From Physcomitrium patens (Eukaryota > Streptophyta > Bryopsida > Funariales > Funariaceae): a stretch of 64,000 bases of DNA. Positions 1 through 52,599 of this stretch are shown here, in pieces. The translations under genes and the position numbers were made by a program. How positions within the stretch are numbered: position 1 is the stretch's first letter; each line of letters begins with the position of its first letter. The stretch covers positions 7,632,063 through 7,696,062 of the forward strand of contig NC_037255.1 of NCBI RefSeq assembly GCF_000002425.4. The letters are read 5' to 3'. The notes beneath the pieces were generated by a model. It did no database searches. It was not told where the DNA came from and saw only the letters and a list, made by a program, of their open reading frames with translations.

Positions 1-224
1 TAGTAATATTTAATGTAATAAAATCTCTATTTAATCTAATTATTTTAAATTTATCTTAATTAAAAAATATAATCCTCAAATAAATTAGATTTTTCATAAC
101 CTAAACTTTTCTTATAATTTGATCTAAAATTTTGTTAGTCAACTAAAAATACATAATCCTAATACATCCAAATCCTTATTGGTAAATACAAAAGCTTTCA
201 TTACTCCGGCAAAAAAAAGATTAT

Positions 225-3042: not shown

Positions 3043-3599
3043 TGTTAAGAACATAAACTAAAAGATGATATATAAACCAATAAAATCTCTATTAAAGAAA
3101 GAATAACAAAATAGAAATAAGAAAGTAAGTATATTAAAAAATAACTAAAATTTCTTTTCCAAAAGACAAGGAAATTTGAGACTCTTGAAACTAGACTAGA
3201 AGCAAGAAAGAAGTTGATAACAATGAAGAAGACTTCACTCTTATCTCTATATATATTATCTAAATAAGGGCTATGTGGCAATATTTTATAGGACCTTTAA
3301 TAGGTATTAACTTTGTAGAAGACATGCCTTGACTTATAAGGCAAGTTTTTCTACATGTGGGCCATATAATTAGCTTGGTCTTCAAATTAACAACATGTGT
3401 AGTACATGGCCAACTTTTTTACTATTTTTCTAATCCAAAAAATCAATTATAGACACCTATAAAGTTAAAGCACTATCTATGAAGCTTCAAAGAAGCATCT
3501 ATAGAAGATATTATAGAATTAACTTACTTTTACTTACTTCTACTTACTTCTACCTATTTATACAGGTGATTACTGGCTTACATGTATATATTTGTAATA
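3043..3599 (-). repeat. 3' LTR of gypsy copy B
   Basis: This 557-base repeat aligns along its whole length with 8861-9409 in the same orientation, and with LTRs of copies C, D and E. The inner edge was set where similarity to the purine-rich end of the internal region begins (about 3600). The outer edge was set where similarity between the two B LTRs ends (tgttaag at 3043). The sequence has visibly diverged from its partner, so the insertion is old. Confidence 0.82.
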
Positions 3600-3640
3600 T
3601 TATCTTCCCTTCTAGGGACGAGTTATACAAAGAGTGGTCA

Positions 3641-4063
3641 TCATATGATGACGAAGTCTATGATGTGATGAATTATATTCGCTACATACTCAGATCTTTG
3701 TTCTCTTCAAAGATGGTTGATTGGGCCTCTCAACCATTGATAGTATCCTTTACCAGGGCAGAAAGACCACCCTATTATTTGATTGTTGTTGAGGCCTTCA
3801 TAACTTCCTTCAAATAAAATATTTAAAATACTATCAAGAGTTGTTCCTACCTCTAATAAAATTACCAAACATCGATAGTCACTTTCAAGGTTGTGATACC
3901 AAATACATTGTATCTCGCCATCTATTCAAGAAAAAATATGTCATTTTTCAAGATCTTCATCTCAATTGCGTCATTTTGAAGGTTGTGATAATTATAATGT
4001 TTCATCGAACAAGTCAGCAAACGAAGGCTCTTCAATCGAATTTGCTAGTTATTGGTTCTCCAT
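3641..4063 (-). pseudogene. Post-pol 140-codon frame of gypsy copy B, unknown product
   Basis: A sense-strand frame begins at ATG 4063, about 95 bases after the pol stop, and runs 140 codons to TGA at 3643-3641. It has six internal stops or near-stops but no indel relative to the same frame in copies C, D and E. Recognisable blocks are MENQ at the start, WYHNL at about residues 55-59, NILFEGSYE at 81-89 and REQRSEYVANI at 120-130. It is rich in acidic residues in the first half, with no transmembrane segment or zinc knuckle. I do not recognise the family. It is not the usual gag, pol or chromodomain. Codon 64 is still an intact CGA arginine codon here, where C, D and E have stops. Confidence 0.6.
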
Positions 4064-4157
4064 CTCTTTAGTATCATAACTACAAAGAAGCTATAAACAA
4101 GGATTAAAAGTAAAATGTTATCTTGCTTGGATCTTATTTCTTTTATAAACAAGATTT

Positions 4158-7100
4158 TCATCTTGATTTCGATGGATGTCATCGATAAAAAGCCTCTACC
4201 ACCTTTGTTGTATTTACAAGATTCTTTATTAGCTCCTATGTGTGTTTATTAATATTATATCCGTGCTAATGGATAAGATATTCCAATTTATTTCGGCACT
4301 GCCTTAAATCTAAGACTTCTTCTACTTCAAACTCTTCATTATTGTCAACTTCTATATGAAGAGGTAGAGCTTATCTTTTTCATGATGTATCCATTATCTT
4401 GTATGGTTCAAGAAGAGACACATGGATTACTAGATGGATTTTCATTGACTCCGGTAGATGTAAACGATATGCAACTATATTGATTTATGTAGAAATAAGA
4501 AATAGTCCAAGTTTACGATAGTCCAACTTAACACAAGGATAAGTAGTCTTGATATTATGACAAAGTAACTATACCTTGTCACTTATGTGAAATGGTGGTT
4601 GTTCCTTTCGATAGATATCCGCATTGATCTTTTGTTGTTCTTGAGCGTCTTTTAATTATGCCTTCATTGTTGCATGTAGCTCTAACAAATGATTTGCCAA
4701 ATCTTTTGCTGTAAGATTATTAGCTTTTGAAAAGTCAAAAGTATCTAGTCATAGATGATAATTATAATTGACAAAGAAAGGTGTTTGTTTTGTAGAAGAA
4801 TATATTATATTATTATAAGCAAACTCTACCAATGACAAAAGAGTTGTCCAATCATCTTGTTGGTAATTGATAGTACATCTTAAATACTGTTCTAAGACTT
4901 GATTAACACGCTTTGTTTATCCATCGATTTGAGGATGGAATATCAAAGATAGTTTTATATCCACTTTTAGAATCTTGAAAGAAGTCTATTAAAGTCTTGA
5001 TATAAATTGGATTCCCCTATTGGATATAATATCCTTGAGTAATCCATCATAGCGATAAATATTGTCAAGAAAGAGTTTAGCTATTTCTTCTTTTGTGATA
5101 GATTTTATACATTGTACAAAATATGCCATTTTGATAAAACGATCTATTATCATGAATATAGAGTCATAAGAACCTAAGATTTGAAGATCCATGATAAAAT
5201 CCATAGAAATAGAAGACCATGGTTGTTTTGGAATATATAATGGTTGAAGAAGTCTATAAGGTCAATAACGAGGAGTTTTTTATTTTAAACAAATGTTGCA
5301 TGAATGAACAAAGTCTTTCACACCCTTCTACATTTGTGGCCAGCAAAAATCTCTAGATATAAGCTCTAAAGTCTTATTGTATCCAAAATGCTTTGTTGCT
5401 GGAAAGTCATGACGTGCTTGAAGAACACATAATCATGCTTCTCTTTTTGGAATATATAATTGACCTTCAAAATAGAGTAGGTTGTTTTTGAATTCAAACT
5501 TAGAAGTATCTTGGGGCGGAAAAGAAGGATTCTTGATATTGTGAACAAGAAGATAAAAAGACATACTTGATTGGATTTGTTTCAAAAGGATCGAATCAAT
5601 AGCCAATGTTGATTTCATTACTCGAAGATGAAAATACTTTGACTTTAAGAGAATTGTTCTTTGCTGATCAAAAGATGCATCTTCTTCTTTTGGTACAAGA
5701 TAAGAACGTCTAGAAAGGGGGTCTAACAAACCTTATTATTTTTTGAGTCGATATTTGATCTTAAAATCAAACCTTGATAAAGACATGCTCCTATAGGCTT
5801 GGCAACGATTTAAAACATGTGCTCACATAAAATACTCAAGATTCTTGTAATCCGTATATACGGTGACTAGATTAGAGGTGCCTTCTAGATGATGACACCA
5901 TTCTTAAAATGAATCCATGATTCTAAGAAGATCTTTGTCATGGATTTCATAGTTAATCTTGGTTGTTGAAATTTTTTTGGAATGAAAAGCTACAGGGTGA
6001 AGTTTATCATTTGTTCCCATTTGTGATAATACTGCATCCAAAGCAAAGTCTGATGCATCTGTTTCCATAAAAAATGCCTTATAAAGTTTACATGATATAA
6101 GGTTGGTGTAGAAATAAAGGTTGACTTTAAAGTTTCAAAAGATGCCTCAGCTTCTTTGTTCCACTCAAGTTTGTCTTTGCAAGTTAAACGTGTAAGAGGA
6201 GGTATAACTTCAGAAAAGACTTCAATGAAGATTTGATAATAGTTGGCAAAGCCCAAAAAACATGGAACATCTCTTAATATTTTTGAAATCTTCTAATTCA
6301 TAATCGTTTGAACTTCTTTAGGATCCATCATAAGTCCATCATTTGAAATGATGTATCCTAAAAAGTCGACTTGAATAGTGTGGAATACACTCTTTTCTAT
6401 CTTGGCATAGAGTACTGCATCTCTTAATTTTTATAATACACGATGAACATGAAGTTTATGTTCATCTGTATTCTTAGAATAGATCAAGATGTCATCCACA
6501 TAATAGATAATAAAATCATCTAAAAATTCTCAAAAAACATCATTCATTAGATGTTGAAAAGTTGTCAGTACATTTCTAAGTCCAAAAGGCATGACATTGT
6601 ATTTAAAATGCCTTTACCTACTTTGAAATAAAGTCTTCCATTCATCTCCTTCTTTAATATGTTATAGATTGTATGCTCTCCATAGATCTATTTTTGTGTA
6701 GATCTTAGCTTGATTCAGTTGATCGAAAAGTTTGAATATCAAGGGTAGAGGATACCTATTCTTGATGGTGATCTTATTGAATCCTTGATAATCAATACAA
6801 ATCCACAATGATCCATCTTTCTTCTTCACAAATAAGATTAGAGCTCTTACTAGTGATTTGGAATGACGTATGAAATTCTTGGCCAAATTTTTTTTAATAA
6901 ATTCCTTGAGTTTAGCCAATTCATTTTGTGATAAACTATAGATTGGTCCAAATGGAAATTGTGCTCTTTCTTGAAGGTCAATTGAACAGTCATAGACACA
7001 ATGTTTTGAAAGAGTATCTGCATTCTTCTTCTCAAATACATCTTGAAATTCTTGATATTAATTAAAAATGCCATTTGAGGTCTTTACATCATTAGAAACA

Positions 7101-8684
7101 AGTGTGGCATAAACAAAACAAAGTGATCCTTCTTTTCGAGCATGCAAGAAAGCTCTAGCACCTTCAAACATAGGTTTAATTGCATTAGACTTATGACTTT
7201 TTACTAGAATAATTTTACTATTAATTATGCTTTTAGAGAAGTCAAGGGTACAAGAAATCCAATCTATTCAAGGATTATACTTTTTTAACCATAATAAACC
7301 TAAAATGACTAGATTAGAGGGAGATCTAATTATATTGAAGATAACACAACTACTATGATCATTTATTGCTACATCTATAGGAAGAATTTCATGAGTAACA
7401 TCTCCAAAAGACAACAAATGATCATCTATGACCTCTATATGAACAAGTTTGGTTTTTTGTACTAACGATATTTTATGACTTTTAACAAATTCTATGTCTA
7501 AGAAACAAACTGAGACTTTTGAATCTATTAAGGTGGAGGCTTTATAATTATTATGTCCTAAATGTACATCTATTATAAAACAAGGAGAGGGTTCTGAAGA
7601 GAAGATGGAACCTTCATTAAAAACTATATAAGATTTCAACTCAATGGTCTTTGTTGTAATTGGACAAATTTTTTTTCCCACATATTGTCTTCTTTGATAG
7701 ATGTACTCTTCATTTTGTGATTTTGTCGCTTCTTTGGATAATGTTGAACAATGTATTTAAGCTCCCCGTAATATAAGCACAATCTTTCTTGACGGCAACA
7801 AATCTTTTCTTACTTGATAACAGATTTAAAACGTACTACATCAATTTGCATATCCTCTACTTTTGAATATATGTTTTGAGGAGATGTTGGTGTTGCCATC
7901 AAATCGTAGTAACATTGAGGCCCATTTGTGCAACTCTCAGATCAAAATTGAAGAAGTCAATTGTCACATTTCACAACAAAGTCAATTACTTGTCTCAATA
8001 TTTGAGGATCAGATAAGTTGAGCATCAATTTCTTTATTTTATATTATAATCCATAAATTGGCTAATAATTGCAACATCATCCCACTTGATATGTATTGCA
8101 AGTTGTCAAAACTGTGAAGCATATAACATTACAAATCAATTACATTATCACAAAATATGGATCTTGTTGGTTGCAACACAAGTTGCATCATGTTCTTTAT
8201 ACATGGATCGAAATTCTGCCAAAAATGCCTCTAGATTGTCCAATCTTAGATCTTGTCATTCAAAAAAAGATGAAAACCACGATAGAGTTGAACCTAAAAG
8301 AAGTGTACCAATGAATCTAAATTGTGATCCTAGAGTTGAATAGCTTTGAGGTTGAAGTTCAATCACAAGTTATACTTAATTGATAAATCCTCAAAATTTG
8401 GATCTTATACCATTAAACTTCTTGGACAAAGAAACTCTTGGTTCTCTAATACTTGAAGTATGTTCTACCATGGGTAGAGGAACATGATTTGGTACAGATC
8501 TTGAAGCAACTCTAATCATCTCTATATCCTCACTTCCTGCCATTCTTGTTGATCCTTGTGGTAGTAAGCCAAGTTGATGCATTGCAAGTATCAACTCCCT
8601 CAATTGCTCTTGCATTTGTACTATTGCATTCTTCATTTCAACAAGATCTCCCATAATAACATTCAAAACAATATCTAATACCAA
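4158..8684 (-). pseudogene. Decayed gag-pol of gypsy copy B
   Basis: Reading the minus strand: gag with a coiled region (EMKNAIVQMQEQ) near 8640; protease at 7681-7268 with STLIDSKVS in place of the usual DSG active site and the conserved ILGLLWLKKYNP; reverse transcriptase about 6990-6250 with [12 protein letters not shown] and an intact YVDD box (about 6490-6510); RNase H about 6230-5870; the zinc-binding region and integrase core about 5730-4900 (MDFIMDL at 5204); and a chromodomain about 4370-4180. Frameshifts and stops break each domain. The DSG to DSK change would by itself disable the protease. No product is expected. Confidence 0.82.
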
Positions 8685-8860
8685 TCAAGACAAGTAGAAG
8701 AAAAGACTTGAGGACAAAGAAAATACTAAGAAAAATATCAATTTAGAAGACGGTAATCTAGAACTTCTAATATTGTTATGTCTTATCATGAGAAAGGGAT
8801 AATCCACTCTTAATCAAGAAAAGACAAAACTATGATATTGTAAGTGTACTCTTGTTAATG

Positions 8861-9409
8861 TGTCAAGGACATGAAGTAAAAGGTGATGCATAAACCAATG
8901 AATTCTGTATCAAAGAAAGAGTAACAAAATAGAAATTAGAAAGTACATATATTAAAAAGAAATTAGAATTGTTTTTTGCCAAAAGACAAGGAAACTTGAG
9001 ACTCTTGAAACTAGACTAGAAGCAAAAGAAGAGTTGATAACAATGAAGATGGCTCCACTCTTATCTCTAAATATACTATCTAATTAGAAGCTATGTGGTG
9101 ATGTTCTATAGGACCTTCAATATGTATTGACTTTGTAGAACACATGCCTTGACTTACAAGGCAAGTTTTTCTACTTGTGGGCCACACAGTGAACTTGGTC
9201 TTCAAGCTAACACCATATGTGGTACATGGCCAATTTTTTTTATCACTTTTCTAACTGAAAAAGTCAATTATAAACACCTATGAAGTCAAATCTGCATCTA
9301 TGAAGCTACTATAGAAGATATTATAGAATTAACTTATTTTAACCTACTTCTACTTACTTCTACCTATTTATACAGATAATTATTAGCTTACATGTGTATG
9401 TCCATGGCA
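8861..9409 (-). repeat. 5' LTR of gypsy copy B
   Basis: This 549-base partner of the 3043-3599 LTR lies in the same orientation. Its outer end reads (on the minus strand) TGCCATGGACATA, close to the TGTCACGGACATA start seen in copy D. Its inner end is tgtcaagg at 8861, the complement of the TTGACA end. Similarity to the 3' LTR stops there, although the following 25-30 bases are shared with the leaders of C and D. Confidence 0.82.
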
Positions 9410-35137: not shown

Positions 35138-36188
35138 TATCAAGGATATGAATCTTGAAGAACTAAAAGATCAAGACACTCTTGTATTACTTCAAAAAAT
35201 TAGATAACTACTTAAAAATGATATAATATTAAACTAGAATGGCTATTGCCAAAGACAAGAATACTAAAAAGTCTTGAAAATAAGACTAAAGACTACGAAG
35301 GCATTGACAAGAGTGAAGAAGGCTTTATTCTTACCTCCATATATACTCTAAACTAAGAACTACTTGGCAATGTCATGTAGGACCTCCAAAATGTGTTGAC
35401 TTTGTAACATACATATCTTAACTTATAAGGCAAGTTTTCTTTTAGTGCACTACATAGCTAGCTTGTTCCGTAAGCTACAAACACATAGACAATTTGTTGA
35501 CTAAGTTTCTAATCTATCAATCAACTACAAATACATATAAAATCAAAGCAATATCTATGAAGCTTTTAGGAAGCATTTCTAGAAAATATTATGAAATAAA
35601 TCTACTTTTATCTACTTCTATTTAATCATATAGGTAAATATTACAATAAATATGTATGTCCATGATATTATCTCTTTCTAGGAATGAGTTCTATAATGAG
35701 CAATTATCATATATTGAAGAAATCTATGATGCGGCAAGTTGTGTTTGCTACATATTCTGATCTTTGTTCTCTTTGAAGATGGTTGATAGGTCCTCTTAGC
35801 CATCAAAAGTATCCCATAATAAGGCAAGAAGACCACCATATTATTTGATTGTTGCTGAGGTCTTCATAACTTCCTTCAAATAAAACATTTGAAATATCGT
35901 CAAGAGTTATTCCTACTTCTAATAAAATTACCAAACATTAGAAGTTTCTTCCGAGGTTGTCATATTAAATATGTTGTATATTGCCATCTATTTAAGAAAG
36001 GATATGTTGTTCTTAAAGATCTTCATCTTGAGTACAATATCTTGAAGGTTGTGACAATCATAATGTCTTATTTGATAAGTTGATAAGTGAAAGTTCTTGA
36101 AGCGAATTTGTTAGTTGTTGGTTTTCTATCTCCTTAGCAACACAAAGATATAAAAGTTACAAGTAAGAATAGAAAGTAAAATGCTATC
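35138..36188 (-). mobile_element. Gypsy fragment E: 3' LTR plus 3' internal end, minus strand
   Basis: 35138-35667 is an LTR in minus orientation, with the same start and end words as copy B. It is joined at 35668 to the 3' internal part of the element, including the full post-pol frame. The rest of the element is absent: the sequence is cut at 36188, where the 5' LTR of copy C begins on the other strand. No matching flank appears on the far side of copy C, so simple insertion of C into E does not explain the junction. Confidence 0.75.
35707..36129 (-). pseudogene. Post-pol 140-codon frame of gypsy fragment E
   Basis: The same frame as in B, C and D is preserved for exactly 140 codons up to TGA at 35709-35707. 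The start codon is ATA here. Blocks IENQQ, NVLFEGSYE and REQRSEYVAN are recognisable. Codon 34 is CAA here, where the other copies have TGA. Internal stops remain, so it is not expressed as a full product. Function unknown. Confidence 0.58.
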
Positions 36189-36747
36189 TATCATAGACAT
36201 ATACATATAAGCCAGTAATTATCTATATAAATAGGTAGAAGTAAGTAGAAGTAGGTAAAAATAAGTTAATTCTATAATATCTTCTATAGAAGCTTCCTAG
36301 AAGCTTTATAGATGCTGCTTTGACTTCATAAGTGTTTATAATTGACTTTTTTAGTTAAAAAAGTGATAAAAAAATTAGTCATGTACCACATATGGTGTTA
36401 GCTTGAAGACCAAGCTCACTATGTGGCCTACAAGTAGAAAAACTTGCCTTGTAAATCAAGGCATGTGTTCTACAAAGTCAACATATATTGAAGGTCCTAT
36501 AGAACATCACCACATAGCTCTTAATTTGATAGTATATCTAGAGATAAGAGTGGAGCCATCTTCATTGTTATCAACTCCTTTCTTGCTTCTAGTCTAGTTT
36601 CAAGAGTCTCAAGTTTCCTTGTCTTTTGGCAAAAAAAAATTCTAGTTTCTTTTTAATATATGTACTTTCTAATTTCTATTTTGTTACTCTTTCTTTGATA
36701 TGGACTTCATTGATTTATGCATCATCTTTTACTTCATGTCCTCAACA
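36189..36747 (+). repeat. 5' LTR of gypsy copy C
   Basis: This 559-base repeat begins TATCATAGACATA (TGTCA-type start with one change) and ends CTCAACA. The end was placed where the 3' LTRs of B, C and D stop sharing sequence. Leader sequence shared with B and D follows. Confidence 0.78.
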
Positions 36748-36957
36748 CATTAACAAGAGTACACTTATAATATCATAGCTTTGTCTTGTCTTGATTAAGA
36801 GTGGATTACTTCTTTCTCATGATAAGATATAAGCATATTAGAAGTTCTAGATTACCGTCTTCTAAATTGATATTTTTCTTAGTATTTTCTTTGTCCTCAA
36901 GTCTTTTCTTCTACTTGTCTTGATTGGTATTAGATATTGTTTTGAATGTTATTATGG

Positions 36958-39900
36958 GAGATCTTGTTGAAATGAAGAATGCAATAGTACAAATGCAAGA
37001 GCAATTGAGGGAGTTGATACTTGCAATGCATCAACTTGGCTTACCACCACAACGATCAATAAGAATGGTAGGAAGTGAAGATATATAGATGATTAGAGTT
37101 GCTTCAACATCTGTACCAAATCATGTCCATCTACCCATGGTGGAACATACTTCAAGTATTAGAGAACCAAGAGTTTCTTTGTCCAAGAAGTTTAATGGTA
37201 TAAGATCCAAATTTTGAGGATTTATCAATTAAGTATAACTTGTGATTGAACTTCAACCTCAAAGCTATTCAACTCTAGGATCACAATTTAGATTCATTGG
37301 TACACTTCTTTTAGGTTCAACTCTATCGTGGTTTTCATCTTTTTTTAAACGAGAAGATCTAAGATTAGACAATCTGGAGGCATTTTTGGCAGAATTTCGA
37401 TCCATGTATAGAGAACATGATGCAACTTGTGTTGCAACCAACAAGATCCATATTTTGTGATAATGTAATTGATTTGTAATGTTATATGCTTCACAGTTTT
37501 GACAACTTGCAATACATATCAAGTGGGATGATGTTGCAATTATTAGCCAATTTATGGATTATAATATAAAATAAAGAAATTGATGCTCAACTTATCTGAT
37601 CCTCAAATATTGAGACAAGTAATTGACTTTGTTGTGAAATGTGACAATTGACTTCTTCAATTTTGATCTGAGAGTTGCACAAATGGGCCTCAATGTTACT
37701 ACGATTTGATGGCAACACCAACATCTCCTCAAAACATATATTCAAAAGTAGAGGATATGCAAATTGATGTAGTACGTTTTAAATCTGTTATCAAGTAAGA
37801 AAAGATTTGTTGCCGTCAAGAAAGATTGTGCTTATATTACGGGGAGCTTAAATACATTGTTCAACATTATCCAAAGAAGCGACAAAATCACAAAATGAAG
37901 AGTACATCTATCAAAGAAGACAATATGTGGGAAAAAAAATTTGTCCAATTACAACAAAGACCATTGAGTTGAAATCTTATATAGTTTTTAATGAAGGTTC
38001 CATCTTCTCTTCAGAACCCTCTCCTTGTTTTATAATAGATGTACATTTAGGACATAATAATTATAAAGCCTCCACCTTAATAGATTCAAAAGTCTCAGTT
38101 TGTTTCTTAGACATAGAATTTGTTAAAAGTCATAAAATATCGTTAGTACAAAAAACCAAACTTGTTCATATAGAGGTCATAGATGATCATTTGTTGTCTT
38201 TTGGAGATGTTACTCATGAAATTCTTCCTATAGATGTAGCAATAAATGATCATAGTAGTTGTATTATCTTCAATATAATTAGATCTCCCTCTAATCTAGT
38301 CATTTTAGGTTTATCATGGTTAAAAAAGTATAATCCTTGCATAGATTGGATTTCATGTACCCTTGACTTTTCTAAAAGCATAATTAAGAGTGAAATTATT
38401 CTAGTAAAAAGTCATAAGTCTAATGCAATTAAACTTATGTTTGAAGGTGCTAGAGCTTTCTTGTATGCTTGAGAAGAAGGATCACTTTGTATTATTTATG
38501 CCACACTTGTTTCTAATGATGTAAAGACCTCAAGTGGTATTTCTAACCAATATCAAGAATTTCAAGATATATTTGAGAAGAAGAATATAGATACTTTTCT
38601 AAAACATTGTCCCTATGACTACTCAATTGACCTTCAAAAAAGAGCATAATTGCCATTTGGACCAATCTATAGTTTATCACAAAATGAATTGGTTAAACTC
38701 AAGGAATTTATTAAAAAAAGTCTAGCCAAGAATTTCATACACCATTCCAAATTACTAGCAAGAGCTCCAATCTTATTTGTGAAGAAAAAAGATGGATCAT
38801 TGTGGATGTGTATTGATTATCGAGGACTCAATAAGATCACCATCAAGAATAGATACTCTCTACCTTTGATATTCAGACTTTGGATCAACTGAATCAAGCT
38901 AAGATCTATACAAAAATAGATCTATGGAAAGCATACAATCTAGTACATATTAAAGAAGGAGATGAATGGAAGACTGCATTCCAAACTAGGTAAGGACATT
39001 TTGAATACAATGTCATGCCTTTTAGACTTAGAGATGCACCAATAATTTTTCAACATCTAATGAATGATATTTTTTGAGAGTTTTTAGATGATTTTGTTGT
39101 CTATTATGTGAATGAAATCTTGATCTATTCTAAGAATACAAATGAACATAAATTTCATGTTCATCCTATATTATAAAAATTAAGAGATGTAGTACTCTAT
39201 GCCAAGATAGAAAAGAATGTATTCTACACTACTCAAGTCGACTTTTTAGGATACATCATTTCAAATGATGGACTTATGATGGATTCTAAGAAAGTTCAAA
39301 GGATTTTGCATTGAAAGTTTTCAAAAACAGTAAGAAATGTCCTAAGCTTTTTGGGCTTTGCCAACTATTATCGGATCTTCATCAAAGACTTCTCTCAAGT
39401 TGCAGGTCTACTTACATATTTTACTTGCAAAGACAAACTTGAGTGGAGCAAAGAAGCTAAAGCATCTTTTTAAACTTTAAAGCCAGCTATTATTTTTGTA
39501 CCAATCTTGTATCACATCAACTTTTCTAAGGTATTTTTTATAGAAATAGATGCATTTGACTTTGTTTTAGGTGTTGTATTGTCACAAATGGAAACAGATG
39601 ATTAACTTCATCCAATAGCTTTTTATTCTAGAGAATTTGAGCAGCTAAGATTATTTATAAAATCTACAAGAAATAACTTCTAGCAATCATGGATTCATTT
39701 CAAGAATGGTGTCATTATCTAAAAGGTGCTTGTAATCTAGTTATCGTATATATGGATCATAAGAATCTCAAGTACTTCATGTCAGTACGTGTTTTAAATC
39801 ATCACCAAGCCTTTTGGAGTATGTCTTTATCAAGATTTGATTTTAAGATCACATATTCAGCCAAAAAATAACAAGGTTTGTCAATCGTTCTTTTTAAATA

Positions 39901-42757
39901 TTCTTATCTTGTACCAAAAGAAGGAGATTCATCTTTTGATTAGCAAAGAACAATTCTCTTGAAGCTAAAGTATTTTCATCTTTAAGTAATGAAATCAACA
40001 TTGACTGTTGATTCGACCTTTGTAAAACAAATCCAATTAAATATATCTTCTGAATCTTTTGTTCACAATATCAAAAAACCTTCTTCTACATTTGAGTTCA
40101 AAAACAACCTACTCTATTTTGAAGTTTGATTATATGTTCCAAAAAGAGAAGCATGATTATGTGTTCTTCAAGCCTATCATGACTTTTTAACAGTATGATA
40201 TTTTGGATACAATAAGACTTTGGAACTTATATCTAAAGATTTTTGGTGGCCACATATGTGAAAGGCTGTAAAAGACTTTGTTCAATCATGGAATATTTGT
40301 TCAAGATCATAAACTCCTCGTCATTGACTTTACGATGTCATATTACATGTTGTTTTGCTCAGGAATGCACTGGACACCTAGCTGTGGAAGATGAGATTGT
40401 GTTTTACAAGTAGTTAAGAAATCTTAATAGGTTTTGTTCATATGAGAACAATATAATCTGAATTTCAATTCAAAAGTGCATAAAACACTTTTTTTAGTAG
40501 TCTTAACGATATATAAATTCCAATTACCTTATTACTTTCATATTTAAGCAATTTAGATTTTTCTTGTAAGCCCAGATCATAATTAGTTAGCTTTAACAAG
40601 CTATAACATCCAATCCGACCATCCACTTGATGTGGAATTTTGCATGCAATTTTTAATGTAAGTCTTCTATATGCTGATGATGTTTTAGCCCAATCCAACT
40701 TATAGATTGTGAGAAAACCTCCAAAAATTACACTAATATCACTCGGTTGCCAACTTGAAAAGTAAAGCAGAAATCCCAACAATGTTTTCTTCCTTTCTAA
40801 TTTTTAACTTTGTTTCAAAATTCGTGTATAGCTTGATCTTCAAGTCCTTCAATATTATGCCAATTTTCACCTTAATTTGTTTGATAGATCTTACGAAATC
40901 ATAGAAATCCTATCCAACCTCAAATTACCACCTTCCAAAATCCTCTTGTGCTAAAAACTAGATATCTCTAAACCACGCTATAAGATTATCACAAAATTTT
41001 GTATACACTTAGCACATCTAATAATCCAAATAGTATCAAGTTTTCAACCATCGATATCACACCAATTACACGAACTAGCTAAAAATGCTAGTCCTAATTA
41101 TATTATATAAAATCTAAATCACTGATATAAACCTTGACTTTGAACAATAATTGCTAAGACTTCCAAAACCTTCTCAAAAAATTCATACATTTCTAGAAAG
41201 AACTTCAAGTTAGCTCTCAAATTCTAACCTCCAATCTTCAAATGCTTCACTAACTTGCTCTTGGTGGTCGTTTTAATCACCAGAGGTCTGATTTTGATCT
41301 TGTCTCACAAATGGTCAACCCTCGGATATCAATCTAACTTATCTTAAGGAGTTTTTAGCCCAATTCTATCCTTAACTTGATCCTAGTATCAATTATATCA
41401 ACCATTTATCTCTTCTATCCTAATTTTATCAATTTATAGTCTTTCTAAGGTAGTATAAGAGTCTCTACAACCTAGAAGGTAAAATTATTAACTAATCTTC
41501 AATCTACTAACTATTAAGATAAGAAAATAACCTAAGAGGCTTTTATAAAAGCTATCTTTAGATACCTCAAATTATAATTGAATTAAGATTATTAGATGTT
41601 AATTAGAAATTAAAATTTAATTATAATTTCACATTATAGTGGTATAACATTACGAAAACGGACTTCTTCAACCATTTCTTATTTCAAAACAACCATGGTC
41701 TTCTATTTCTATGGATTTCATCATGGATCTTCAAATCTTAGGTTCTTATGACTCTATATTCATGATAATAGATTTTTTTATCAAAATGACATATTTTGTA
41801 TAATGTACAAAATCTATCACAAAAGAAGAAATAGCTAAACTCTTTCTTAATAATATTTATCGCTATGATGGATTATCCAAGGATATTATATCCAATAGGA
41901 GAATCTAATTTGTATCAAGATTTTAACAGACTTCTTTCAAGATTCTAAAAGTGGATATAAAACTATCTTTGATATTCCATCCTCAAATTGATGGATAAAT
42001 GGAGTGTTTTAATCAAATCTTGAATTAGTATATAGATGTACCATCAATTATCAATAAGATGATTGGACAATTCTTTTGCCATTAGCAGAGTTTACTTATA
42101 ATAATACGATACATTCTTCTACAAAAAAAACACCATTTTTTGTCAATTATAATTATCATCTATGACTAGATACTTTTGACTTTTCAAATTCTAATAATCT
42201 TGCAGCAAAAGATTTGGCAAATCATTTGTCACAGCTACATGCAACAATGAAGGGGTAATTAAAAGAAACTCAAGAATAATAAAAGATCAATGCAGATATC
42301 TATTGAAAGGAACAACCATCATTCCACATAAGTGACAAGGTATAGTTACTTTGTCGCAATATCAAGACCACTTATCCTTGTGTTAAGTTGGACTATCATA
42401 AACTTGGACTATTTTTTTATTTCTACATAAATGAATCCAGTTGCATATTATTTATACCTACCAGAGTCAATGAAAATCCATCGAATATTCCATGTGTCTC
42501 TTCTTGAATCATACAAGACAGTGGACGCATCATGAAGAAGACAAGCTCCACCTCCTCCTATAGAAGTGGACAATAATGTAGAGTTTGAAGTGGAAGAAGT
42601 CCTAGATTCAAGGCAGCATCGAAATAAATTAGAATATCTTATCCATTGATATGGATATGATATTAGTGAATATTCATGGAAACTAATAAAGAAACTTGTA
42701 AATACAGCAAAGGCGGAAGAGGTTTTTTATCAATGACATCCATCAAAATCAAAATGA
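36958..42757 (+). pseudogene. Decayed gag-pol of gypsy copy C, split by repeat F4
   Basis: Gag begins near 36958 (MGDLVEMKNA region) and is followed by a zinc-knuckle-like region near 37800-37880. Protease lies at 37927-38472, one open 181-codon frame with LIDSKVS replacing the DSG site and ILGLSWLKKYNP. Reverse transcriptase is about 38650-39320, RNase H about 39430-39880 and the integrase N-terminal part about 40010-40320. The integrase core resumes after F4 at about 41660-42200, and the chromodomain is about 42580-42757. The reverse-transcriptase catalytic box reads YVNE instead of YVDD, which would abolish activity. Stops occur in gag and RNase H. Confidence 0.82.
40336..41657 (+). repeat. 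Repeat family F, copy F4, inside the copy C integrase
   Basis: The interrupted integrase frame gives clear edges. Left flank reads gactttacga and right flank acggacttcttc; the uninterrupted site in copy B reads gaccttatagacttcttc. The insert starts TGTCATATTACATG, ends ATAACATTACGAAA, and is 1322 bases, the same length as F1. No coding frame is convincing: the 105-codon minus frame 40782-40465 has no domain. Confidence 0.78.
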
Positions 42758-42851
42758 AAATCTTCCTTATAAAAGAAATAAGATCCAGACAAGATAACAT
42801 TTTACTTTTAATCCTTGTTTGTAGCTTCTTTGTAGTTATGATGCTAAAGAG

Positions 42852-43274
42852 ATGGAAAACCAACAACTAGCAGATTTGATTGAAGAGCCTTTGTTTGCTG
42901 ACCTGTCGGATGAGATAATATAATTGTTACAACCTTTAAGATGACACAATTGAAATAAAGATCTTCAAGAATGACATGTTTTTTCTTGAATAGATGGTAG
43001 AATACAACGCATTTGATATCATGACCTTGGAAGAGACTCCTGATATTTGGTAATTTTATTAGAGGTAGGAACAATTCCTGATGGTATTCCAAATATTTTA
43101 TTTGAAGGAAGTTATAAAGGCCTCAACAACGATCAAATAATAGGATAGTCTTCATGCCCTAATATGTGATACTATCGATGGTTGAAAGGCCCAACCAACC
43201 ATCTTCGAAGAGAACAAAGATCTGATTATGTAGCGAATATAATTCATTACATCATAGACTTCCTCAACATATGA
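42852..43274 (+). pseudogene. Post-pol 140-codon frame of gypsy copy C
   Basis: The frame begins at ATG 42852, 94 bases after the pol stop, and runs exactly 140 codons to TGA 43272-43274. It starts MENQQ and contains NILFEGSYK, GPTNHLRREQRSDYVANI and a hydrophobic end. Internal stops include codons 24, 31, 34, 41, 46, 55 and 64, several at positions where another copy keeps a CGA or CAA codon. No known domain. Confidence 0.6.
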
Positions 43275-43315
43275 TGACTGCTCTTTGTAGACCTCATTCC
43301 TAGAAGAGGAGATAA

Positions 43316-45493
43316 TGTCACAAACATATACATGTAAATTAGTAATCACCTGTATAAATAGGTAGAAGTAAGTAGAAGTAGATAAAAGTAGGTTCATTTT
43401 ATAATATCTTTTATAAAAGATTCTTAGAAGCTTTATAGACGTTGCTTTGACTTTATAGATATCTATAATTGACTTTTTGGATTAAAATAGTGATCAACAA
43501 GTTAGCCATGTACCACATATATTGTTAGTTTGAAGACCAAGCTAATTTTGTAGCCGACATTTAGAAAAACTTACCTTGTAAGTTAAGGCATGTGTCTTAC
43601 AAAGTCAATACATATTGGATGTCCTATAGAACATTGCTACATAGTCCTTAGTTAGATAGTATATATAGACACAAGAGTAAAGCCCTCTTTACTTCTGTCA
43701 AGTCTTTTCTTGATTCTAGTCTAGTTTCAAGAGTCTCAAGTTTCCTTGTCTATTAGTAATAAGCTATTTTAATTTTTTTTTAATATATATACTTCCTTAT
43801 TTCTATTTTGTTATCCTTTCTTTGACACGATGTCATAATACATGAAATCTTGCTTGAGAATTCTCTGGACTCCTCTATATGGAAGATAGAATAGAAATTG
43901 CAACAACAAAATCCTAACTCTAATAGAATACTACTTAAACTCTTATTAGACTATAAAAATGCTAAGTAAACTTTAATCAAATTCAAAGAAATCTCAAAGG
44001 AATTATAAATAAATAATAAAAAATCTTAAATAAATATTAGAATGATCACAAATATATCTCAAATATATCTCAATTCAATCTTTATTTAATCCTAATTAAA
44101 ATCCTATTGGACTTCATTCAAACTTTAGGCCAAAAAATAACTAAATCTTAAATCCTAAATAAATCCTAATAAAATCCTAAATCCTAAATTAAATACTCGC
44201 CAAATCCTAAATCCTAAACCCAAAATCAAACCCTAAATCCTAAATCCAAAATCAAACCCTAAATCCTAAACCAAATCCTATCCAAATCCTAATCAAATCC
44301 TAAATACTAAATCAAATTCTAATCTTAAATCAAATCCTAACCAAATCCTAATCCTAAATCAAATCCTAACCAAATCCTAAATCCTAAACAAAATCTTAAT
44401 CTAATCTTAGTAATTTTTATAATAGATTTAAATCTCAATAACTAATAAATGAATTATTGATCTTAATTCAAAATTTTCACACTTTTTAAAAACTAAGTTG
44501 AAAATAAGCACAAAAAATTTGAAAAAGATCGAAATGACCAAATAGAAGAAAACCCTAAAAATGTGCTTGTATATTGGTCGACTTCCTTCTCCAACCTTGA
44601 TGTTAATCTTCTAGAGCCAATATCTCTCTTTTTCACTATTCGATTGATCTAAAAAAAATTTGTATACATAGAAAAATAAGTCTACTATCATCACCTATAA
44701 ATTTCACTCCAATCCAACTAGTAAATTATAAGAAATCTTAAAAATCCTCACTAGACCTAAAATTCTACTTTGTGAGACCTTGACCTACTTTACTTCAATA
44801 ACCCTCAATTCAATTGTTAGATCGAGCTAAAATTTAAAAAGCATATTAATCATAACTATGACCATTAATCCACAAAATTTCACTTATAGATCTTTTACAA
44901 AACTCTTGAAATCACTAAAAATGTCAATCCTATTTTATTTCACTAAATCCAAGTCATCCAAAAATAAACTTGACTTTGTAAAGTTCTTACAAAGTCATTA
45001 CGAATCCGAATCATCCAAAACTTATGCTTATATAAACTTTATCCAATCTACTATCAAATTCCACTTTTCAATCTGCACAAGAACTTTCGAGTTGTCCTTG
45101 AGACTCAATTTGCTGCCTCAAGGTCCAATTTCGATCCTGGTTCATAACTGGCCGTCTCTGAATATCAATATCTAACTTTTCTAAGTAAATTTTACTAGAA
45201 TTTATTCTTAACTTCCTTTTTAAGATGCTTATATCATTTATTTTTTCAATCTATTTTGTTTTGCCTTATTTATAGTCCTACAAAATAAGCAAAAGTCATT
45301 TTTGTAAAAAAGTAGTACTACTACTAAAAATTTTACTACCTTCTTATCTTTTATCCATATTTTTTTACTTTATCTTTTAACTTGGCTTTCTATAATAAGA
45401 TCCATATTATCATATTTTACTATATAGTCATGTTACAACACAACAACGGATTTTATTAGTTTATACATCATCTTTTAGTTCATGTCCTTGACA
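43316..45493 (+). repeat. 3' LTR of gypsy copy C, interrupted by repeat F3
   Basis: The LTR runs 43316 (TGTCACAAACATA) to 43830, then is broken by F3 and continues from 45446 to TTGACA at 45493. The two parts together correspond to the full 5' LTR at 36189-36747. Confidence 0.75.
43831..45445 (+). repeat. Repeat family F, copy F3, long form with telomere-like tract
   Basis: It starts TGTCATAATACATG, ends TTACAACACAACA, and is flanked by cacga on the left and acgga on the right. Between about 44100 and 44400 it contains a long run of imperfect units of the type AAATCCTA and AAACCCTA, reminiscent of the plant telomere heptamer CCCTAAA. The 105-codon plus frame at 44858-45175 has no domain. Confidence 0.75.
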
Positions 45494-46218: not shown

Positions 46219-46225
46219 TGTCATA

Positions 46226-46272
<47 letters not shown>

Positions 46273-46783
46273 CCTAATAATTATATAGATAATAAGAATA
46301 GATAGAAGTAAGTCAAAATAAATAAATATGATAATATCTTATAAATAGCTTCATAGACGCTACTTTGTCCTTATACATGTCTATAGGTGATTGGTAGGTT
46401 GAAAACTTGGCCAACAAAGAAACAACATGTCGACATGTTGACCACTTGTAGTACAAGTTGGACATATGGCAAACACCTAGGAAACTTGCCCTGTAAATTA
46501 GACATATGTCTTGCAAGTTGGACACATATTAGAGGTTCTATAGCATGTCACCACATAGTTTTTAATTAAGTAGTATATATAGAGGCAAGAGTGAGGCGTT
46601 CTTCACTCTTGTCAACTCTTTTTTTGCTTTTACTTTAGACTCAAGAGTCTTATGTTTTCTACTCTTTGGCAATAGTCATTCTAGTTCTTCATTGACTATA
46701 CATACTTTCTAATATTTTGTCACTTTTTTTTTGACATAGATTCTATAAATTTGTGTATCTTCTTTCAGTTTGTATCTTTGTCA
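46219..46783 (+). repeat. 5' LTR of gypsy copy D
   Basis: It starts TGTCATAGACATA and ends TTTGTCA (TTGACA type). It contains an (AT)n microsatellite at about 46229-46268 that is absent from the 3' LTR, explaining part of the length difference (565 versus 544 bases). A TATA-like agtatatatagagg lies at about 46571-46584. Confidence 0.8.
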
Positions 46784-46937
46784 AATTGACAAGAATACAC
46801 ATACAATATCAGAGCTTTGTCCTTTCTTGATTAAGAGTAGATTAACTCTTTCTCTTGATAAGACATAAGCATATTAGAAATTGCGGATTATCCTCTTCTA
46901 AACTGATATTTTTTTTAGATTTTTTTTTTCTTGATTC

Positions 46938-49900
46938 TTGAATATTATATTCTGTGAGAATAGACACCTTTCTTTTTATTGTGCTAGCATAGCAGAGCTT
47001 GCTGAAATGAAGAATGCAATGGCTCAAATGCAAGAGGAAATGAGAGAGCTAATACTTGCAATGCATCAATTCAATCTACCACCACAAGAACCAATAAGAT
47101 TATTAGACAATGAAGATATAGAGATGATTGGAATTGCTTCAATATCTACACTAAGCTATACTACTGCTCCTACAACAAAACATCATTCAAATTTCAAAGA
47201 ACCAAAAATTGGATTGCTTGAAAAGTTTGATGGCATAAGATCTAAATTTTGAAGATTCATTAATTAGATATAATTGGTGATTGAATTACAATCTCAAAGT
47301 TATCCAACTCAAGGATCACAAGTTAAGTTTATTAGAACATTACTTTTAGATTTTGCTTTATCATGGTTTTCATCATTTCTTAAATGACGTGATCCAATAT
47401 CAGATAATTTGAAAGCATTCTTAGCAGAGTTTCAATCTATGTATGAGAAACATGATGCAATCTATATTACAACCAACAAGATTCATATCTTATGATAAGA
47501 TAATTGATCAGTGACATTATACGCTTCACAATTTTGACAATTAGCAATAGATATCAAGTGATATGATACAGCACTCATCAGTCAATTCCTCTACGGATTA
47601 CAATATGAAGTAAAAAAATTAATACTTACTTTACTTGATCCTCAGACATTGAGTCAAGAAATTGACTTTGCTATGAAATATGATAATTAGCTTTGTAAGT
47701 TTTGATTTGAGAATTGCACAATGAAACCTAAACATTATTACAATTCAATGATGATACCGACGACTTCTCAATCTAAACATTTGGAAGTAGAAGATATACA
47801 AATTGATGCAATATATTTAAAACCTCTTATCAAATAAGAAAAGACTTGTCATTGTTAAAAAGGACTATGTTTATATTGTAGAGAAGCTAAGCACACTACT
47901 CAATATTATCTAAAGAAACAACGCAACAACAAAATGACGAGTATTTTTGTTAAAGATGAAGACATGTTAGAAAATAAATTTGTCCAACTATAATAGGAAT
48001 TGTGCAGCTGGAATCTTGGATAATTCTTAATGAAGGTCTTTTTTCTCTTCAAAACCCTCTCATTGTTTTATGATAGATATACGTTTAGAATCTAATAATT
48101 ACAAAGTCTTTTCCTTAATAGATTTAAGAGCCTCAACTTGTTATTTAGATGAAGAATTTGTTAAAAGTCATAATATATAGTTAGTATCAAAAACTAAACT
48201 ACTATACATAGAAGTCATAGACAGTCATCTGTTATCTTTTAGAGATGTTATTCATGAAACACTTCTTATAGATGTAGTAATAAATGGTTATAATAATTAA
48301 ATAATTTTTAATATAATTAGATCTTCCTCTAATCCAGTCATTTTAGGTTTATTGTGGCTAAAAAAGTATAATCCTATGATAGATTGAATTTCTTGTAAAC
48401 TTGACTTTTCTTCAAAGATCATTAAGAAATTTTTCTAATGTAGTAGAAAGCCATGAGTCTAATATAGCCAAATTTATATTTATAGGTACAAAAGTTTTTT
48501 TACATGCTCTAAAAGAAGGATTTTATTTTGTTATTTATGCCACATCCATTTTAAATGATGGAAAGATTTCAAGTAAAATTCAATCAAGATTTTCAAGATG
48601 TTTTTGAGAAAAAGAATGTAGATATTTTTTCGGAGCATCATTCATATGATTGTTCAATTGATCTTAAAGAAAGAACTCAGTCGCAATTTGGTCCATTTAG
48701 TCCAATCTATAGTTTATCATAAAATGAATTGACTAAACTTAAGAAGTATATTAATAAAAACTTGGCCAAGGATTTCATATGCTATTCAAAATCTCCTACA
48801 CGAGCTCCTTTTTTATTTTTGAAGAAAAAATATGGAGCATTGTAAATATGTGTAGGTTATTGAGGACTCAACAAGATTGCCATCAAGAATATATATCCTC
48901 TGCCTTTGATATCTAGACTTCTTGATCAATTAAATCAAGCTAAGATCTATATAAAAATAGATCTATAAGGAGCATATAATCTGGTCCGCATTAAAAAAGG
49001 AGATGAATGGAAGACAATATTTTGAACAAGGTATGGACACTTTGAATATAATGTCTTACCTTTTGGACTCACAAATGTACCAATTGCTTTTCAGCATCTT
49101 ATGAATGATGTTCTTTGTGAGTTTCTACAAGATTTTGTTATCTATTACTTAGATGATATTTTAATCTACTCTAAAAATGCAAAAGAACATGAAGTTCATA
49201 TTTTTCGTGTGTTACAAAAACTTAGAGATAAAAGATTTTATGTCAAGATAAAAAAGTGTATATTTCACACTACTCAAATTGACTTTCTAGGATACATCAT
49301 TTCAAACAATGGTCTAATGATAGATCCTAAAAAAATTCACACAATCATAGACTAGAAGATTGTAAAAACAATAAGAGATGTACAATATTTTTTGAGATTT
49401 GGCAATTACTGTCGGATCTTCATCAATTATTTTTTTCAAGTTGAAGCACCACTTACTTACTCAACTTGTAAAGACAAGCTCAAGTAGAATAAAGAAGCAG
49501 AAGCATCATTTGAAGCTTTAAAAAAAGTTTTTATTTCTATACCAATTGTACATCGCGTTGACTTCTCCAAAGCATTTTTCATTGAGACAAATGCATCTAA
49601 CTTTGCTTTGAGTATAGTCTTGTCACAAATAAGAGTAGATGACAAACTTCATTTTGTATCTTTTCATTCAAGAAAATTTTTAGTAGCCAAGATTAATTAT
49701 GAGTTTCACAACAAGAAACTTCTTACAATCGTGGATTCTTTTCAAGAATGGCCTCATTATTTAGAAGGTACTCAAATCTAACCATCGTATATATAGATCA
49801 TAAAAACCACGAGTATTTCATGTCAACATGTATTTTGAATTATCGCCAAGCTCATTGGAGCATATTTTTATCAAGATTCGAATTCAATATCACTTACTGG

Positions 49901-51490
49901 CTACGAAAATAATACGATTTGTCTGATGCCCTTTCTAGACATTCTTATCTTATACCAAAAGAAGAAGAAGCAGCTTTTGACCAACAAAAGATAATTTTAT
50001 TGAAGCCAGAATAATTTCATCTCCAAGCAATGAAATCAACATTGATTGTCGATTTGACTTTTCTCAAGAACATCCAAGAAAGTATGTTATTAGACCTTCT
50101 TATTCATGATATTCAAAACAATTCTTCTAAGTCTCAAGATACTTCAAAGTCTAAATTTAAAGAGAACCTATTCTATTTTGAAGGATGCTTATATGTTCTA
50201 GAAAGAGAAGTACAATTACATGCTTTTGAAGTTCATCACAATTTCCTTGAAGTAGGACATTTTGGATAAAATAAGACTTTAAAGCTTATATCTAAAAAAT
50301 TTTAGTAGCCTCAAATGTGAAAGATTGTTAAAAAATTTGTGTAGACATGTAATATTTGTTTAAGATCAAAAACTCCTCATCATCAACTTTATAGATTCTT
50401 CCAACCATTATCTACACCAGAATAACCATGGTCTTCTATCTCTATGGATTTTATTATGGATCTTCCAATTTCAAGTTCATATGATTTCATATTTGTGATT
50501 GTAGATCGTTTCACCAAGATGGCACATTTTATATCATATATAAAATCTATCACATGTGAAAGAATATTTAAACTCTTTTTTCACAATATCTATCGCTATC
50601 ATGGATTACTAAGGGATATTATATCAGATAGAATAACACAATTTTTTTAGAGATTTTCAAGAATTCTTTTTAAGATATTGAAGGTAGATATAAAAATATC
50701 TTTGAATTTATATCGTCAAATTGATGGACAAAGAAAATGGATAAATCAAGTTTTAGAGTAATATTTGAGGTGTACCATCAATTATTAATAAGTTGATTGG
50801 ATAATTCTTTTGTTATTGCCAAAGTTTGCTTACAATAGTTTAGTACATTCTTCTATTGAATAAACACCTTTCTTTGCCAATTACACTTATATTCTATGAT
50901 TTGATACTTTTGACTTTTCAAAAGTTGATAATCTTTCGACAAAAGATGTGGCAAATCGATTGTCAGAGCTACATGCAACCATGAAGGTAAAAATAAAAGA
51001 AGCTCAAGAATGACAAAAAGCCAATGCAGATGTCTATTGCAAAGAACAATCTCAATTCCATGTGGAGGATAAGATATGGTTACTTTGTCATAATATTAAA
51101 ACTATTCATCCTTGTAATAAGCTGGATTATTATAGGCTTAGACCATTTCTTATTTGTAAATAAATCAATCTAGTTGCTTATTGATTACATCTATCACAGT
51201 TTATAAAAATCCATCTTGTATTCCATATATCTTTATTTGAGCCATAGAAGACAATAGATATACAAGGAAGGAGACAAATGCCACCACCTCTTATAGAAGT
51301 AGACAATAATGAAGAATTTGAGGTAAAAGAAGTCTTAGATTCAAGGCGACATCAAAATAAGTTAGAATATGTGATACATTGGCATGGATATGACATTAGT
51401 GAACGTACATAGGAGCCATTTAGGAATCTAGCAAATGCATCAGTCAAAGTTAAAGCTTTTCATCAACGACATCCATCAAAATCAAGATGA
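46938..51490 (+). pseudogene. Decayed gag-pol of gypsy copy D
   Basis: Gag begins in the open frame at 46938-47252 (EMKNAMAQMQEEMRELI), and protease lies at about 47980-48390 with the active-site DSG replaced (LIDLRAS). Reverse transcriptase is about 48640-49380 with an intact YLDDILIYS box (about 49147-49173), in an open frame 49101-49355. RNase H is about 49480-49910 and the integrase zinc region about 50020-50330. The integrase core, about 50420-50900, opens with MDFIMDLP at 50444 and keeps DRFTKMAHF and IISDR. The chromodomain is about 51310-51490 with LEYVIHWHGYDIS. Multiple stops, mostly TAG/TGA/TAA at Gln, Arg or Trp positions, make it inactive. Confidence 0.83.
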
Positions 51491-51589
51491 AGAGTGAAAA
51501 AAATTCTTTGCTATAAAGCAAAGCAAGCCCAATAGAGATTTCATTCTATCTTGTATCATTTTTTCTTTCGATTTTTTAGTACTTAAAAG

Positions 51590-52012
51590 ATGGAGAACCA
51601 ACAACCAATAGATTCAATTCAAGAGTTATCATTTGCTGAGCTATCAAATGAGACATTGTGACTATCACAATCTTCAAGATGGTAAAATTGAGATGAAGAT
51701 CCTCAAGAATGGCATATTCTTCTTCAAATGGATGGTAAGATACAACAAGTTTGGTACCACAACCTTGGAAGGAACTTCTGATGTTTAGTGATATTTTTGG
51801 AAGTAGAAACCATTCTTGATGGTATTACTAATATTTTGTTTGAAGGAAGTTATGAAAGTTTTAATAATGATCAAGTATCATGGTAGTCTTCTCATCCTAG
51901 TATGGAACATTATTGATGGTTGAAGGGACCTATCAACTACCTTCAAAGGGAATAAAGATTAGAGTACATAGCAAATATAGTTTGGGACATCTTGGACTTT
52001 ATCAACATGTAA
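51590..52012 (+). pseudogene. Post-pol 140-codon frame of gypsy copy D
   Basis: ATG 51590 lies 100 bases after the pol stop; the frame runs exactly 140 codons to TAA 52010-52012, ending 28 bases before the purine tract. Recognisable blocks are MENQQPIDS, DEDPQEWHI (35-43), WYHNLGRN (55-62), NILFEGSYE (81-89) and GPINYLQRE (113-121). It has no zinc finger, signal peptide or membrane segment. Length, start and end agree with B, C and E. The product and role are unknown. Confidence 0.62.
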
Positions 52013-52055
52013 TCACTACTCCTCATAGAACTCATTCCTAGAAGAGGGGGAGTAA

Positions 52056-52599
52056 TGTCACGGACATACATATTTATCTTAATAATTATCTAGATAGTAA
52101 GAATAGGTAGAAGTAAGTCAAAGTAAATAAATATGATAATATCTTATAGAAAATTTTCTAGAAGCTTCATAGATACTACTTTGCCCTTATACATATCTAT
52201 AGATGATTGGTAGGTTGAAAACTTGGCCAACAAAAATGCCACATATCGACATGTTGACCACTTGTAGTACAAGTTGAACATACGGTATATACCTAGGAAA
52301 CTTGCCTTCTAAATTAGACATGTGTCTTGCAAGTTGGATGCATATTAGAGATTTTATAGCATAACACGACATAGTTCTTAATTAAATAGTATATATAGAG
52401 GCAAGAGTGAGACCTTCTTCACTCTTGTCAACTCCTTTCTTGTTTTTACTCTAATTTCAAGAGTCTTATGTTTTCTAGTCTTTGAAAATAGTTATTCTAG
52501 TTCTTCCTTGAATATACATACTTTCTTCTATTTTGTCGCTTTTTTTTTGGCACAAATTCTATGAGTTTATGTATTTTCTTCCAATTTTTGTCCTTGATA
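52056..52599 (+). repeat. 3' LTR of gypsy copy D
   Basis: It starts TGTCACGGACATA directly after the purine tract and ends CTTGATA (TTGACA with C to T). It aligns with 46219-46783 apart from the (AT)n expansion and scattered transitions. Confidence 0.83.

Follow-up and report, generated by a model that had tools for sequence, protein, structure and literature searches.

A conserved sense reading frame between pol and the 3' LTR of a chromodomain-bearing Ty3/Gypsy retrotransposon family of the moss Physcomitrium patens

Results

Old chromodomain-bearing Ty3/Gypsy elements in the window

The window, a stretch of 64,000 nucleotides of the Physcomitrium patens genome (contig NC_037255.1, positions 7,632,063 to 7,696,062), contains the Ty3/Gypsy LTR retrotransposons A to E, whose layout was derived from a comparison of the window with itself (Table 1). 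In element D, Pfam domains were found in the order Ty3_capsid, RVP_2 (below the cut-off), RVT_1, integrase zinc-binding and rve (below the cut-off), and SH3_Tf2-1 (a Tf2-type SH3 domain), Integrase_H2C2 and Chromo scored above the cut-off. The order capsid-protease-reverse transcriptase-integrase and the chromodomain C-terminal to the integrase identify the elements as chromoviruses. The LTR pairs were 83-85.1% (B, two alignments), 81.9-83% (C) and 86.1% (D) identical; since the LTR pairs are only 82-86% identical, B, C and D are old insertions. A comparison of B (9399-5257) with C (36191-40332), which lie in opposite orientation, gave 100% identity midway through the 5' half and ~78-84% from there on, and the 5' LTRs of the two elements are 93% alike, the 3' LTRs 83%. 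Gene conversion between the two old copies is the apparent cause of this identity tract, and dating of B or C by their LTRs is therefore unsafe. The insertion of ~1.3 kb in element C is 70% identical to 20906-22189 and represents another repeat family that is nested inside element C.

Elsewhere in the window, degenerate CCCTAAA-like telomere-type arrays (24007-24302 and 44131-44409) head two related repeats of ~1.2 kb (24063-25289 and 44151-45362, 67% identical to each other). Four ORFs of 162-418 codons lie on the minus strand between 60272 and 63980, in a region of 42-43% GC; they look coiled-coil-like by eye, had no Pfam match and are possibly exons of one host gene.

Table 1 Elements and features in the window (aORF, additional ORF between pol and the 3' LTR).
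Feature	Position	Strand	Remarks
Element A	~3-3041		cut by element B before the frame
Element B	3042..9399	-	LTRs 9399-8860 / 3589-3042
aORF copy in element B	3641..4063 (read 4063-3641)	-	decayed; 7 in-frame stops
Element E, 3' end only (aORF and 3' LTR)	35231..36189	-	cut by element C
aORF copy in element E	35707..36129 (read 36129-35707)	-	decayed; 6 in-frame stops; start codon is ATA
Element C	36191..43828	+	LTRs 36191-36698 / 43318-43828; insertion ~40333-41660
aORF copy in element C	42852..43274	+	decayed; 9 in-frame stops
Element D, chromodomain Ty3/Gypsy	46219..52597 (left end approximate)	+	LTRs ~46219-46780 / 52056-52597
D reverse transcriptase	48867..49301	+	Pfam RVT_1, E 6e-29
D chromodomain, integrase end	51317..51469	+	Pfam Chromo, 32.1 bits (cut-off 25.1)
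D pol stop codon (HPSKSR*)	51488..51490	+	shortly 3' of the chromodomain
D spacer, pol stop to aORF ATG	51491..51589	+	99 nt; T-rich beside the ATG; AG at the end
aORF copy in element D	51590..52012	+	decayed; 7 in-frame stops
D polypurine tract	52040..52052	+	adjoins the 3' LTR; 27 nt past the aORF stop; read from the sequence

The frame is kept in length but decayed in all window copies

Elements B, C, D and E carry upstream of the 3' LTR a frame of 423 nt in sense orientation, at the places where an earlier reading based on the DNA letters alone (the sequence-only reading) had put it. The four frames aligned with each other without an internal gap, the blocks NILFEGSYE and GPINxLxRE corresponded block for block, and codon 141 is a stop in all four, as that reading had reported. 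Position and length of the proposed shared frame were thus confirmed, but none of the copies is open: each contains 6-9 in-frame stops, and codon 24 is a stop in all four.

The view that frameshifts are common elsewhere in these elements held for the LTRs and the spacer between pol and the frame, which are gapped, but not for pol, in which B and D align in ungapped runs of 1724 and 882 nt. None of the 27 gap events between B and D falls within element positions 5315-5795, a stretch of 480 nt with the frame inside; two (11 nt and 6 nt) fall in the short spacer and many in the LTRs. The ungapped frame is unusual against the noncoding parts of the element. Length conservation had been offered as an argument for selection, and this conclusion turned out to be right (see below), but length alone carries little weight, given that all window copies of the frame are pseudogenes.

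The codons CAA, CAG, CGA and TGG are turned into stops by a C-to-T or G-to-A change. Stops occupy 15 columns of the window frames, 14 of which keep a readable codon in at least one copy, and in 12 of these 14 some copy has CAA, CAG, CGA or TGG. Such an origin explains the stops but is no proof of coding, since the sense +1 frame, taken as control, gave 13 of 16 stop columns and the proportion is not peculiar to the coding frame. At codon 24, 58 of 68 other copies in the genome read CGA (68 loci, five places being counted twice), and the shared stop at this codon therefore fits CpG decay. In the proposed history, methylation-type decay (C to T, G to A) of these old insertions would have produced most of the stops.

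Intact copies are present in the genome

The 470,438,890-base (470 Mb) assembly containing the window was searched for further copies. A protein search gave 20453 candidates, 150 of which were scored, and ranking by protein score puts intact copies first. All 150 scored matches, window copy D included, span nearly all of the 140 codons (latest start at codon 2, earliest end at codon 138). By hand count, 59 of the 150 have no internal stop, a proportion that is not a genome-wide rate because the copies were ranked by score. A DNA search with D, whose ranking favours old copies, gave 7302 candidates; 40 were scored and 39 of these are other copies. The net length was 423 nt in 32 of the 39 and changed in seven (six by -1, one by -7), and all 32 copies of unchanged length hold 3-10 stops; the copies nearest to D are therefore old and dead. 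Frequent indels in other copies, which the sequence-only reading had named as evidence against its proposal, were not observed: even among these decayed copies, only a minority (seven of 39) had changed in net length.

For closer analysis 69 frames were loaded; one (L111) was dropped as a duplicate and another (L114) was kept despite low ungapped identity. The resulting 68 loci include five places twice, and 63 distinct copies remained on recount. Stop-free frames were found at 32 of the 68 loci; all 32 start with ATG and comprise 28 sequences of MES-type and four of MEN-type. Ten young elements were chosen for an intact frame and are, thus, not representative of the average copy; their LTRs are 98.3-99.4% identical in seven and 90.9-94.6% in three, and the intact frame ends 41 nt (in one case 40 nt) before the 3' LTR. 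Taken together, the retrotransposon family is very abundant and still young, and the aORF is a sense additional ORF located between pol and the 3' LTR in many copies. In two of the young copies (L071 and L075) the open frames of gag and pol overlap by ~66 nt in a -1 relation; a scan near the overlap found no conserved slippery heptamer.

Properties of the predicted protein

Among the 32 intact copies, 88 of the 140 columns are invariant. The median pI is 5.4 and the median net charge changes from -5 in residues 1-50 to +5 in residues 101-140. The most hydrophobic stretch of 19 residues (from residue 66) has a median hydropathy of 1.29 and a maximum of 1.82; acidic residues occur within it in the copies shown. 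The N-terminus (MESQQP or MENQQP) is polar. No family was found in Pfam for the window copies or three intact copies (E ≤10; E ≤5 in one search with window copies), in NCBIfam for three intact copies (E ≤10) or in PHROGs for the window copies (E ≤10), in searches whose filters drop most matches above ~0.1. Profile searches against the PDB gave only chance-level matches (best E 0.44 and 0.30), and no relative turned up in the viral contigs and prokaryote genomes scanned, which is unsurprising for an element from a plant. An AlphaFold model computed from the four window copies had a mean pLDDT of 37 and was unusable.

An envelope-like gene expressed from a spliced RNA, as in env-like plant elements, would have the position and orientation of the aORF, which match those given for plant env-like ORFs in PMC7264820, and a candidate acceptor AG lies before the ATG. 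However, the product has only 140 residues, its top hydropathy is that given above with acidic residues inside the stretch, and its start is not signal-like. Neither a signal peptide or transmembrane segment, as judged by hydropathy only, nor the size of an env protein was found, and we consider an envelope very unlikely. Since there is no recognisable motif, an enzyme is unlikely too, although this argument is weak.

The frame is probably translated from a start codon of its own

The distance from the pol stop to the ATG is 99 nt in D, with the frame in phase 0 relative to pol, and 94 nt in B and C, with the frame in phase 1. In the eight of the ten young elements with a recognised pol end, 94 or 95 nt separate the pol stop from the ATG, and the frame is in phase 1 or 2. 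Further, an in-frame stop stands directly 5' of the ATG in seven of the ten young elements and in 17 of the 63 distinct copies. If the frame were a displaced C-terminus of pol, made together with pol by readthrough or frameshift, element D would be as expected, with its frame in pol phase behind a spacer of only 99 nt. The other phases in B, C and the young copies, the varying length of the spacer, the stops directly before the ATG and the gaps of 11 nt and 6 nt that separate B from D in the spacer but not in the frame all speak against it, and we consider this alternative very unlikely. Because spacing and phase vary, a fixed pol fusion is excluded for the family as a whole, and because copies differ in their phase relative to pol, initiation at the ATG of the frame is strongly implied. 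Judged by this arrangement, the aORF is very probably translated from its own start codon and would not be made as a pol fusion.

The start codon is immediately preceded by AG in 58 of the 63 distinct copies, which are related and not independent observations, and the mean T fraction from -60 to -15 is 0.51 in the same related copies. This T content is reached or exceeded in 4.7-9.4% of the 60-nt windows of elements B, C and D. A conserved splice donor was not found; the best donor scores were modest and differ between copies. The AG and the T-rich stretch would suit a splice acceptor, and the mRNA of the aORF may be made by splicing to this AG, a tentative suggestion to which we give somewhat less than an even chance.

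The frame is under selection as a protein

Within the window, dN/dS of D versus B, C and E was 0.42, 0.24 and 0.31 (LRT 6.9, 13.6 and 14.0), significantly below 1. When D was compared with the base held by most of B, C and E at each site, transversions were distributed 6:0:12 over codon positions 1:2:3 (probability of so large a skew by chance ~3 in 10,000). The values for B-C (1.59), B-E (0.58) and C-E (0.74) were not significantly below 1. This pattern is what is expected if D split off while the gene worked, with most differences among B, C and E dating from subsequent decay. The intact MES-type and MEN-type copies form two subfamilies that are ~14% apart in DNA and both open. Between them dN/dS was 0.07-0.21 with a median of 0.12 and an LRT of at least 25.6 in 32 pairs, formed from eight of the 28 MES-type and all four MEN-type distinct intact copies. 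Together with the values for D these data bear out the earlier proposal of past selection on a separate protein; a dN/dS near 1, which had been named as evidence against it, was not found between intact copies.

Compared with six intact copies, D gave a dN/dS of 0.11-0.23 (LRT 22-27) in the right frame and of 0.84-2.24 in the two shifted sense frames, and 12 pseudo-frames in the LTRs gave 0.72-1.32. In nine whole-element pairs, made from six of the ten elements, dN/dS was 0.10-0.20 in the frame, and the final three 420-nt segments of pol (integrase end) gave 0.09-0.34, which shows that selection on the aORF protein is about as strong as on the integrase end of pol. Deamination does not make transversions; in four intact subfamily pairs these were distributed 2:0:6, 1:0:7, 4:0:8 and 1:0:8 over codon positions 1:2:3. 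In sum, the frame almost certainly encodes a selected protein, and the window frames derive by decay from a genuine additional gene.

The stops in every window copy, the codon-24 stop common to all four and the mutual dN/dS of B, C and E, which does not differ significantly from 1, would also be compatible with a non-coding 3' internal sequence whose length was kept fortuitously or through a constraint acting on the RNA or in cis. This reading is extremely improbable in view of the 59 stop-free copies among the 150 scored, the low dN/dS in frame between intact subfamilies, the complete lack of second-position transversions in the four intact pairs and the CGA that 58 of 68 copies have at codon 24; moreover, the intact copies are not one lineage but two open subfamilies.

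The strand is not fully settled by the window alone, but it is settled by the genome copies. The antisense +1 frame had a dN/dS of 0.32-0.52 between window copies and 0.52-0.59 versus intact copies, and in the window its LRTs (5.0, 9.3 and 14.9) were close to those of the sense frame (6.9, 13.6 and 14.0). A real gene in antisense, as the aORF in Grande or Retand elements, is nevertheless hardly credible: with the six intact copies the antisense LRT was 3.3-5.7 and that of the sense frame about four to seven times larger, the antisense frame contained 6-10 stops in six copies tested whose sense frame is open, and its changes were less conservative (mean BLOSUM62 -0.55 versus -0.06 in sense). 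Because the wobble position is shared with the sense frame, we read the antisense signal as its shadow.

Discussion

The family is most likely RLG1 of P. patens, since copy number, chromodomain and youth match the published family, the two being compared by description only. RLG1 is described as having an integrase with a chromodomain and 5092 complete elements, the youngest of which are transcribed (PMC7466625); by this description, both are high-copy, chromodomain-bearing Gypsy families with young copies. The main text of PMC7466625 on RLG1 contains neither "ORF" nor "open reading frame".

Chromoviruses of the Tcn1 clade, such as Tcn1 of Cryptococcus and SM-Tcn1 of Selaginella, have a chromodomain at the integrase end and a Tf2-type SH3 domain, as have the elements studied here. 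SM-Tcn1 is reported to have two ORFs, gag and pol (PMC2864245), whereas the window family has a third conserved gene. For the Tcn1 clade the absence of a tRNA primer site is reported and self-priming is predicted for most members (PMC6317226); in B, C and D, complementarity between leader and LTR was not above that of shuffled controls.

The sequence-only reading regarded a separate downstream protein as unusual because chromoviruses normally encode only gag and pol. This is in line with a fungal survey that reports one or two ORFs in the majority of elements (PMC2864245), but sense ORFs behind pol are already known from plant LTR elements (PMC7264820). The plant ORFs termed aORF-3S or eORF-3'F share position, orientation and conservation in many copies with the frame found here; those described in PMC7264820 are, however, env-like, whereas the moss ORF is short and not env-like. 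Fungal Gypsy elements with an "add. ORF" of unknown function, listed in the legend of Fig. 3 of PMC2864245, can be likened to it by description only. SM1-Galahad of Selaginella is reported to have two extra short ORFs of 316 and 309 bp downstream of its gag-pol ORF, and the 309-bp ORF carries a chromodomain and is, thus, a piece of pol (PMC3350952). By description, the moss aORF is set apart from these, having no Pfam match and lying behind a pol that keeps its own chromodomain. By type, the aORF belongs to the known group of sense additional ORFs that follow pol; it is carried by a chromovirus and has fewer than 250 codons. The REXdb survey of plant elements, as described in PMC6317226, required at least 250 codons, and an ORF of 140 codons would be missed because of this cut-off. 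No description of the aORF was found in the literature searched, which left out the 2008 paper on moss chromoviruses and the 2018 P. patens genome paper.

Taking selection and separate translation together, the frame is likely to represent a third gene in a chromodomain Ty3/Gypsy LTR retrotransposon of high copy number. Its location, sense orientation and presumed separate initiation would be those of an accessory gene. In the explanation that we favour, the protein would be neither an envelope nor an enzyme and might act in trans, in anti-silencing, RNA export or help with integration. A trans-acting regulator that serves as accessory factor for an RNA or chromatin step of the element is possible, if doubtful. 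Still less likely is the more specific picture of a previously undescribed accessory factor of moss chromoviruses which counters host silencing or serves RNA export in trans, would be a counterpart of retroviral accessory genes in role but not in descent, and could aid the dominance of the family in its host.

If the family is RLG1, the gene belongs to the most abundant transposable element of the model moss, which is reported to be transcribed in unstressed protonema (PMC7466625). Short accessory genes can escape size cut-offs such as the 250 codons given in PMC6317226, and genome annotators gain a protein to mask or to study. A conserved third gene would make the family more than a gag-pol element and would offer a concrete handle on its spread.
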